From Virgibacillus alimentarius (GTDB lineage: Bacteria; Bacillota; Bacilli; Bacillales; Amphibacillaceae): a DNA stretch of 64,000 bases. The translations under genes were made by a program, and so were the position numbers. The notes under the pieces are model-generated. The model did not search any database. It was given only the letters and a program-made list of their open reading frames with translations, and was not told where the DNA came from. Of the stretch, positions 53,968-64,000 are shown piece by piece. Every line of letters starts with the position of its first letter. Position 1 is the first letter of the stretch. The stretch covers positions 1-64,000 of the forward strand of contig NZ_JFBD01000047.1 in assembly GCF_000709085.1 (NCBI RefSeq), given 5' to 3'.

Positions 53968-54232
53968 ATAAATGAATCCCAAATGCAATGATAAGGAAAA
54001 AGTACAAAGTATTACCTAAAGAGAGGGAAATAGCAGCTGAGAATTTCCTAGGAAATAAATACTCTTGGAAAGTCGCCCTTGTAGCAGCTTCTTTGAAAAG
54101 GAGTAGAAGAAGCCGGACATTGACCGTTATCAATCATTGAGTGTGCAAGTTTATTATAACTTGTAAACAAAGGTGGTACCACGGAAATATAGCCTTTTCG
54201 TCCTTTTATGGATGAAAGGGCTTTTTATATTT
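53968..54232 (+). promoter_or_regulatory. T-box riboswitch, tRNA-Val specific, upstream of valS
   Basis: The conserved T-box AAAGGTGGTACCACGG is at 54169-54184. The probable specifier codon GTC (54072-54074) is followed by GCCCTTGTAGC, the same position relative to the downstream CTyTTGAGC-like block as in other T-boxes, and matches valine. The terminator stem at 54192-54230 completes the switch. Confidence 0.92.
54192..54230 (+). terminator. T-box terminator of valS
   Basis: AGCCTTTTCGTCC pairs with GGATGAAAGGGCT around a short loop, followed by TTTTTATATTTT. Confidence 0.88.
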
Positions 54233-61298: not shown

Positions 61299-61847
61299 AT
61301 GACAACTTCATCGATTATGATTAAGGATGTACCAAAGGAGGACCGCCCAAGAGAAAGATTATTAAAACTAGGGGCCAGCTATTTATCTAATCAGGAATTA
61401 TTAGCTATTTTACTCGGGAGTGGAACCAAACAAGAATCCGTTATGTCTTTATCCAATCGGATACTTATGCATTTTGAAGGACTAAAATTATTAAACGATG
61501 CGACTATTGAGGAGTTAACAGCTATTAAAGGAATAGGCATAGCAAAGGGGGTTGTAATATTATCAGCAATTGAACTTGGTAAAAGAATGAATGAATATAA
61601 GCCAAACGAACGATATACAATCCGTTCACCAGAGGATGGCGCTGATTATGTCATGGAGGAGATGCGTAATCTACCTCAGGAACATTTTGTAGTTCTCTTT
61701 CTTAATACAAAAAATCAGATCATTCACAGACAAACAATTTTTATCGGAAGTTTAAATGCCTCAATCGTACATCCCCGGGAAGTATATAGGGAAGCGGTAA
61801 AACGTTCTGCAGCTTCTATTATATGCGCCCATAATCACCCTTCTGGA
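61299..61847 (+). CDS. radC: RadC, 5' exon interrupted by a group II intron
   Basis: The first 183 codons of RadC (YsxA), a JAB/MPN-domain protein of uncertain role usually about 230 residues long. A helix-hairpin-helix segment (AIKGIGIAKGV) precedes the MPN domain with EHFVVLFLNTKN and the JAMM histidines in CAHNHPSG. The reading frame is broken after the Gly codon at 61847: the intron begins GTGCGCC and read-through adds VRLQGA and a stop. The missing part should start with Asp and supply the Ser and Asp of HxHx7Sx2D. The 3' exon lies beyond the window. AAAAGGAGGAACC precedes the ATG. Confidence 0.93.
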
Positions 61848-64000
61848 GTGCGCCTGCAAGGTGCGTAATTTTAGTGATTTCTTTTGAAATCTAGAACTCC
61901 TTACAATGTTCTATGGTCAGCATCTTACCTTGAGGGGAAACCCATAGAGGAAACAAAGCATGATGTGAAAAGGAGAAAAGACGACAAAACTATCTAATGT
62001 CGAGTCAGTTCTTCAGACCAAGTGGTGTACGGTAAAAGCTAAACTGCTTAAATCCTAGACGAATGAGCGATGGGTGCGCCGTTGTCTACGATAGTTAACA
62101 GGCAATGAGGGCAAAATGGGAGACACATTGCTTGTGTGTCTGCTGGGTATCTCCTGAACTCTGCCCATAGTAAGGTTTTGTCCTTCAATCCTCAACTAGA
62201 GGAAAACGTCGAAAGGGATACCTAACCATCACGTATCTAAAATTAAGACATAATGCAGGGATTACCTAAATGCAAACGCCACACGGCTATTAGATTTTGG
62301 TCTCTGAAAATTGCATATGGTAACGGAGTCTCCGTAGTACCCAACGTTCGCTTGTAATGAGTTTAGCATGGGGAAGGGAGACAGGTTGATGTTAACGTCA
62401 ATGAGAAAGGAGTCATGAATATGGCGACAGATCCATTTCATCAGTTAGACGTTATAAGGAAAGCTTCTCATAACGGAAAATTCATTACTGATTGTTATCG
62501 CTTAATGTATAAAAAAGAGTTGTGGATGAATGCTTATGCCAAACTATATCCAAATCCAGGAAAACTAACGCAAGGAATATCGGATGACACGATAGATGGT
62601 TTCAGTCTACAAAAAATTGAAGGTATCATAGAGCAATTAAAAGCTGGAACATTCCGTTTTGCACCTGTAAGAAGGGTTTATATCCCTAAATCTAATGGGA
62701 AAAAGAGACCACTAGGAATTCCTAGTTTCAAAGATAAGCTAGTACAAGAAGTTATGAGAATGATATTGGAAAATGTATATGAACCGACATTCTCAGAAAA
62801 CTCCCATGGTTTTAGGGGGGAAAGAAGCTGTCATACAGCCCTATCCCAAATTAAAAGCACGTGGAAGGGTCTAACATGGTGCATTGAAGGAGATATCAAA
62901 GGCTTCTTCGACCATATTGACCATAAGGTACTAATAAAACTTATCTCAAAGAAAATAAATGACCATCGTTTCTTGCTTCTCGTTCATAATGCACTTACTA
63001 GTGGCGTAATGGAGAACTGGATGTATCGTAAAACCTACAGTGGCACACCACAGGGTGGGATTATATCACCTATTTTAGCTAACATCTATCTCCATGAGTT
63101 TGACCTTTTTATGGAAAAACAATTGAAGGAATTTGATAAAGGAGCAAGAAATGGGGAATATAGAAAGCTCCGTTCAAAAATTAGCACGTTATCACAAAAG
63201 ATTAAAAGACTCGATCAAAGAAACGACCACATGCAATGGAAAGGTAGAGGTGAGTTAATCCTTGAGATTCAGAAACTTAAAGCAAAACAAGTAAAAGTTA
63301 CCTCTATTATCGATCCAAGGGGCAGAAACTACCAAAGAATGAAATATGTACGTTATGCAGATGATTTTGTGATTGGGATTGCTGGTTCAAAGCAAAGTGC
63401 AGTGAACATGAAGAATACAATCAAACGATTTCTTAAAGATGAATTAAACCTTGACCTTAGCGATGAAAAAACTCTCATTACCCATTTAGAAAAGCCGATT
63501 CCTTTTCTTGGATATCAATTTCGTAGTTGGGATGAAATAAAGATCAAAAAGGTCACTTACAAGAATCAAAAACATCCATTGAAAAAGAGAATTTTATCAG
63601 GTGTTATTAAGTTAGAAATTCCTGAAAAGAAAATTAAAGAATTTGCAACAAAAAACAGATATGGTAATTTAGACAGCTTTAAAATTATACATCGAGCAAA
63701 ACTTATTAATAATTCGGAGTTAGAAATTCTGTATATCTATAACGCTGAACTACGTGGAATTGCAAACTACTATAAGTTAGCCAATAACTATCATCATTTA
63801 GATAGGTTATTTTATCTAGCTGAAAGTAGTTTCGTTAAAACTATAGCTAATAAACGTAGAAGTACTTCTATGAAGGTTGCAACCAGCATGCGAACACATA
63901 AACAGGCAAGTTTATGCCTTATTATGAAAGGCAAACATGGAAATGAAAAACTTCATCAGTTCGTAAAGCTAAAAGATCTACCAAAGCATAAAGGTTCAAT
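61848..64000 (+). mobile_element. Group II intron in radC (runs off the right edge)
   Basis: The intron starts at 61848 with GTGCGCCTGCAAGGTGCG, closely matching the start of the lactococcal Ll.LtrB intron (GTGCGCCCAG...GGTG). About 573 bases of structured RNA (domains I-III and the beginning of IV) precede the intron protein; GGGATACCTAA and CGGAGTCTCCGTAGTA resemble segments at similar places in Ll.LtrB. The insertion is sense-oriented and falls between codons of radC, so accurate splicing would restore the gene. Domains V and VI and the 3' exon are outside the window. The class is probably mitochondrial-like (IIA). Confidence 0.93.
62421..64000 (+). CDS. ltrA: Group II intron reverse transcriptase/maturase, LtrA-like (3' end outside window)
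   Basis: The frame is open from 62421 to the edge (526 codons). RT blocks are in order: [62 protein letters not shown], and the catalytic RYADDFVIG (Tyr312-Asp315). The maturase domain X includes [14 protein letters not shown] (about 440-455). Close resemblance to lactococcal LtrA suggests that a DNA-binding and HNH endonuclease region follows beyond 64000. ATG at 62421 has AAAGGAG eight bases upstream; an ATG two codons earlier is too near it. The catalytic YADD is intact, so mobility is possible. Confidence 0.95.

Follow-up and report, generated by a model that had tools for sequence, protein, structure and literature searches.

Mobile group II introns of the IIA/ML type, such as Ll.LtrB, retrohome into DNA targets recognized through EBS1, EBS2, and delta pairings, and encode a protein (IEP) with reverse transcriptase (RT), maturase X, and HNH endonuclease domains. 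An ML-class intron, O.i.I2, interrupts radC in Oceanobacillus iheyensis and has been called the only intron in bacteria known to encode a degenerate IEP; an ORF-less group II intron, C.te.I1, is also known (PMC4424553). The radC gene is non-essential in Bacillus subtilis and Streptococcus pneumoniae, its function is unclear, and it is the preferred target of Tn554-like transposons (PMC3788773). Given the precedent of O.i.I2 (PMC4424553), radC as an intron target is not new; the most unusual features of the system described here are two guide hairpins, radC genes with two introns, and splicing-only descendants.

Overall structure of the split radC

The window analyzed here is a stretch of 64,000 nt (positions 1–64000 of contig C47) from a genome of 3.05 Mb in 146 contigs. 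The window stops within the intron, and the reading was therefore continued past 64000 along C47. The features are as follows, in window positions unless a contig is given (a slash in a sequence marks the intron insertion point).

61299–61847, + strand: radC 5' exon, 183 codons from the ATG at 61299, ending ...AHNHPSG
61836–61840, + strand: IBS2 in the exon, CACCC, pairing with EBS2 GGGTG
61842–61847, + strand: IBS1 in the exon, TCTGGA, with the G of the GAT that opens exon 3 as delta'
61848–64000 in the window and on to C47:64375, + strand: group II intron, probably of ML type, 2,528 nt in total
62072–62076, + strand: EBS2, GGGTG, which tracks exon changes across species
62115–62167, + strand: domain I guide region, AATGG...CCA, with two hairpins whose stems covary
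62129–62135, + strand: loop of hairpin 1, TGCTTGT, a second guide, apparently decayed in the window copy
62151–62157, + strand: loop of hairpin 2, CTCCTGA, the likely working guide (delta plus EBS1), 6/7 with TCTGGA/G
62415–64000 in the window, + strand, ORF end at C47:64043: IEP, with RT (YADD) and maturase X intact and HNH beyond them frameshifted

The radC frame reads from the ATG at 61299 through ...CAHNHPSG and is followed by GTGCGCC at 61848, and unspliced radC adds VRLQGA after HNHPSG before a stop at 61868. A profile search splits the RadC domain (PF04002) exactly, with positions 1–77 at C47:61620–61850 and positions 77–120 at C47:64376–64507. The 3' exon begins at C47:64376 in phase 0 and comprises 46 codons (DPTPSQED...KGYL). 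The letters at the 3' junction are CTCCTACCCTAC followed by GATCCTACACCTTCC, and the intron, which starts with GTGCGCC, closes with CTACCCTAC before GAT. Its termini, GTGCGCC ... CCCTAC, agree with the 5' GUGYG and 3' AY ends of group II introns, and domains V–VI are matched by Rfam RF00029 at C47:64280–64375 (64.4 bits), the very end of the intron. The initial annotation had read RadC as far as CAHNHPSG, a group II start at GTGCGCC, and an LtrA-like frame behind it, with the cut in phase 0 inside the JAMM motif; the RT and maturase matches and the split profile bear out this reading, and the domains V/VI, the 3' exon starting with GAT, and the rest of RadC that it expected past 64000 are all present. 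The presence of a group II intron in radC directly after HNHPSG is confirmed.

Exon 3 supplies the Ser and Asp of the JAMM motif as its residues 5 and 8. As proposed, the unspliced product lacks two motif residues and ends after six more, but the Asp that follows the Gly, though conserved, is not a zinc ligand. Since the intron lies inside the JAMM motif and the 3' exon lies downstream, full-length RadC is predicted to require splicing. Frames named by eye as mreB, mreC, mreD, minC, and minD lie 3' of exon 3, which identifies the split gene as the canonical chromosomal radC. A second, uninterrupted radC-like gene is located at C3:14192–14815; its neighbours are rlmH copies and a serine recombinase, and it seems to belong to a mobile element. 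An intact second copy, which the initial annotation had named as counting against a spliced gene if this one lacked its 3' half, exists, but the window copy keeps that half. The surrounding stretch of contig C3 (L008:5445–19846) is an SCC-like element with the radC-like gene, two rlmH-like ORFs, the serine recombinase, and DNA methyltransferase-like ORFs. Elsewhere on C47, a group II intron of another type (RF02001) is found ~7.5 kb downstream, shortly past an L21 leader (L007:10575–10746; C47:71774–71945), and a T-box leader lies at window positions 53979–54208.

The IEP extends for 528 aa up to the window end and 542 aa in all, and matches RVT_1 (PF00078, 1e-34) and the maturase domain X profile Intron_maturas2 (PF01348, 3e-11). 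After residue 542, the HNH endonuclease is found only in broken frames with stops, and the intact HNH of an autonomously retrohoming intron is thus lacking in this copy, while it is intact in L248, L252, and other relatives. The window copy should splice, as predicted from its sequence, and with its endonuclease broken it is probably unable to home.

Distribution and decay of the intron

Genomes were scanned with a junction pattern consisting of the HNHPSG codons followed by GTGYG; many first-scan matches proved to be uninterrupted radC with HNHPSGVC or HNHPSGVR and were rejected as introns. The search of other genomes for the same intron at the same radC site, which the initial annotation had suggested, returned it in 28/159 genomes of the same family (19/46 genera) and in 11–12 more genomes in the rest of the order-wide sample of 397. 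A class-wide sample searched with this pattern gave no match beyond the order. Out-of-sample testing yielded few new introns overall, and none in the class sample or in repeat order and family samples. A named scan added more species of Bacillales and a MAG from Calditrichia among the matches listed, for a total of at least about 50 species. A search of phage contigs gave no match, and among plasmids the matches were confined to two from Bacteroides and were short and weak.

The same-site introns range from 2,538 to 552 nt, that is, from full retroelements (2.5 kb) to ORF-less remnants of 552 nt. Nearly all copies end in CCCTAC, or in a sequence close to it, with GAY as the next three letters, and domain V was matched in 20/20 short copies tested. 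Both exons are open except in one case (L235), where exon 1 has an internal stop and another element interrupts radC. In L024, the first base of the 3' exon is A instead of G, and the delta position of the guide is U instead of C, a compensating change. Three Halolactibacillus species carry a 1.1-kb intron, whose remnant ORF of 225 aa (one species tested) has Intron_maturas2 as its sole match above the cut-off (9e-10); no IEP was found in the three genomes at E ≤ 1e-20. These sequences fit a small maturase serving its own intron, autonomous splicing being the alternative. Upstream of a Halolactibacillus radC intron, a RAGATH-18 RNA match is located at L239:597–690. In Bacillus sp. FJAT-22090 the intron occurs in both radC genes (L044 and L077), and each of the two contigs breaks off within it, which points to nearly identical copies. 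Derivatives with a degenerate IEP are common and persistent at the radC site.

Two hairpins as proposed guides for synonymous targets

In the full-length introns, two adjacent hairpins ~22 nt apart each carry a 7-nt EBS1-like guide. L252 carries CTCCAGA and CGCCGCT, L094 the same two guides in swapped order (CGCCGCT and CTCCAGA), L260 CGCCTGA and CGCCGCT, and L106, from another phylum, CGCCTGA and CTCCGCT. In these four introns, guides of the CTCCAGA/CGCCTGA kind pair with TCN-GGN/G, while those of the CGCCGCT/CTCCGCT kind pair with AGY-GGN/G. Two site-matching guides are present in 10/10 introns with intact RT and HNH, and nine pair 7/7 in both loops; the tenth, L042, has a single delta mismatch in its AGY guide (the loop of L106 was taken from the exon-complementarity alignment and that of L042 was read from the printed guide region). 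Seven of the ten combine a TCN with an AGY guide, and three have two TCN guides that differ at the third base of the Gly codon. A random 7-mer would pair 7/7 with an allowed site in ~2.3% of cases per loop. Exons of either serine type pair at 6–7/7 with the matching guide and at 2–5/7 with the other. At 6/7 pairing, two guides cover 12–20 of the 24 possible spellings and one guide covers 2–12. Among uninterrupted sites in the family sample, AGY occurs in only 2/29, so an AGY guide adds little there.

In the window copy, one guide remains good while the other loop appears to have decayed. With its own exon, EBS2 pairs 5/5 and EBS1 plus delta 6/7 rather than 7/7. The hairpin 1 loop reaches at best 6/7 with any TCN spelling, 5/7 with any AGY spelling, and 4/7 with its own exon, whereas intact relatives reach 7/7; pairing at 7/7 in both loops is thus a property of those relatives and not of the window copy. 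Most shortened copies retain a guide that fully fits their own exon, and in L088, which has an AGY exon, hairpin 1 is deleted and TTCCGCT is kept. Control introns, namely those at radC site A (target codons Glu and Val, with no split codon family) and a related intron elsewhere, carry a single guide.

EBS2 GGGUG pairs with CAYCC by G-C or G-U, and several resident introns have GGAUG where the exon reads CAUCC. The EBS1/IBS1 pairing tracks synonymous exon changes, with 266 Watson-Crick pairs against 226.9 ± 5.0 in 5,000 permutations that ignore kinship (maximum 248). The hairpin stems covary among 18 introns, with 99.6% of cells paired and 27 changes on both sides against 9.1 in shuffles that likewise ignore kinship (0/500 as high). 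Because neither test is corrected for the tree that relates these introns, the effective sample is smaller than these counts. An anchor rule that placed EBS1 at a fixed offset was abandoned, as it mixed the loops of both hairpins and gave a weak excess (165 Watson-Crick pairs against 142.6 ± 6.4, maximum 167 in 10,000); because the rule landed on different loops in several introns, the two-loop arrangement became visible. Hairpin 1 was rejected as EBS2, since its loop never complements CAYCC and the covarying EBS2 lies ~55 nt upstream. Taken together, the sequences suggest a dual-guide intron that may tolerate synonymous variation of its target. In the literature searched, largely papers of open access, we found no paper on two EBS1 guides or on synonymous-codon coverage.

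Selection and modes of inheritance

In pairwise comparisons, exon dN/dS is mostly 0.01–0.08 where dS is measurable, species with RT-less introns included. Open exons in ~50 species and strong purifying selection in the measurable pairs imply that radC splicing probably occurs across the relatives. Among full-length introns, IEP dS is 0.4–1.6, lower than the mostly saturated exon dS, with IEP dN/dS of ~0.1; their ribozymes differ by a median of 10%, with no correlation with the host (rho 0.10, p 0.25). Close pairs of shortened introns show an IEP dS similar to that of the exons; in this group IEP dN/dS lies at 0.3–0.5, and ribozyme divergence, with a median of 33%, is correlated with the host (rho 0.29, p 0.001). 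By these measures, the full-length introns appear to spread between species and the shortened ones to be resident. The window copy belongs by sequence to the spreading, full-length group, with its endonuclease lost.

Other introns and elements in radC

About nine species have a further group II intron, also in phase 0, at HPREV/YREA, 63 nt upstream. The two introns measure ~0.73 kb and 2,040 nt in L251 and ~0.72 kb and 705 nt in L238, where both are ORF-less, and ~0.5 kb and 1,466 nt in L250; further two-intron genes are L262, L092, L094, L043, L261, and L300. At L295:1655–7122, two group II introns occupy the upstream site, in tandem or nested, with two domain V and two IEP matches. Introns of another type (RF02004; L296–L299), most of them without an ORF, occupy a third site that precedes the one in the window by a few codons; in three genomes from a single genus they are ORF-less and ~0.9 kb long. 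The group I intron model RF00028 matches twice at L296:5325–6001, next to a radC copy. The gene is also interrupted by a Tn554-like element (L302, codon 185) and by a serine-recombinase element (L311), and is broken in several relatives. radC is a crowded insertion target.

Proposed mechanism and alternative explanations

Group II introns find their targets by RNA pairing, and synonymous drift in the host should let those targets escape. We consider it probable that the intron in the window is a radC-specific ML-type element that arrived recently, is spliced from its host, descends from dual-guide homing elements, and is now in stepwise decay. With its own maturase, the intron would be spliced from the radC mRNA, restoring the JAMM motif, while mobile members would home into DNA encoding HNHPSG/D. 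EBS2 (GGGUG) would read CAYCC via a G-C or G-U pair, and each of the two EBS1-like loops in neighbouring hairpins would act as a guide for different synonymous Ser-Gly spellings, mostly one for TCN and one for AGY; as no single guide could pair with both serine types, the second would widen the target range. Once the intron has arrived, its endonuclease and the guide not in use would decay (the stage of the window copy), then the RT, and in some lineages the whole ORF, ending in a splicing-only intron inherited with the host gene.

The second hairpin could instead be a leftover duplicate of the EBS1 arm, with no targeting role, in an ordinary ML-type intron related to O.i.I2. The O.i.I2 precedent, the C(T/G)CC core common to guides of both loops, and the two same-serine-type guides in three intact introns would suit such a duplicate. 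We regard it as unlikely, given about nineteen distinct guide pairs, in most of which both loops pair 7/7 with a permitted synonymous site; two or three differences between TCN and AGY guides, which have exchanged loops in L094, L253, and L050; and an unused guide that has mostly decayed in shortened or damaged copies.

That the window radC is a dead, unspliced fragment, with RadC supplied by the mobile-element gene on C3, would accord with that intact gene, with the broken endonuclease, and with the non-essentiality of radC (PMC3788773). It is nevertheless very improbable, because both exons are open, exon dN/dS in relatives is mostly 0.01–0.08 even with RT-less introns, the guide, domain V, and 3' splice site are retained, and several split-radC relatives (e.g., G039–G041) have no other radC match. 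The initial annotation had further proposed that a housekeeping gene depends on splicing, which could act as a switch. Full-length RadC does need splicing, but radC is reported non-essential and of unclear function (PMC3788773) and is broken in several relatives, which weakens both the housekeeping and the regulatory readings. A switch would be compatible with the need for splicing and with the long persistence of the intron in some lineages, but nothing was found in its support, no conditional element or shared regulatory feature being detected, and the scattered distribution and stepwise decay better suit a selfish element; we consider it the most improbable of these readings.

For the favoured dual-guide intron, the broader proposition seems likely: a natural lineage with two EBS1 guide hairpins would splice and home across synonymous spellings of the motif in both serine codon families, and in Bacillales radC would repeatedly have given rise to long-lived splicing-only introns, in some cases two around a 63-nt exon. 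If true, a ribozyme with two guides would offer a natural solution to drift and a design idea for programmable broad-target introns.

Comparison with known systems

Tn554-family elements target the same conserved stretch of radC (PMC3788773) but, being DNA transposons, disrupt it. The radC introns resemble organellar splicing-only introns, MatK-type maturases, and C.te.I1 in that the RT or the whole ORF is lost while the host gene stays functional, and in that an X-domain protein is kept (225 aa in Halolactibacillus); unlike the organellar introns, those in radC are bacterial and chromosomal, with many losses at one site. Trichodesmium reportedly has multi-intron and twintron genes, with more than one group II intron per bacterial gene, but these are other genes in another phylum, and radC has a 63-nt internal exon between its two introns. 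The L244 intron, which occupies the same site as that in the window, is probably O.i.I2. If so, O.i.I2 and the window intron would have in common not only the gene and probably the type (the ML class taken from PMC4424553) but also the site. The L244 IEP lacks YADD; the window copy differs in its intact RT and its second guide hairpin. O.i.I2 was called the sole bacterial intron with a degenerate IEP, and dozens of such derivatives are found here at the radC site. The radC introns share with Ll.LtrB the EBS1/EBS2/delta recognition, an RT-X-HNH IEP, and similar positions of EBS2 and EBS1, but where Ll.LtrB has one EBS1, they carry two EBS1-like guides.
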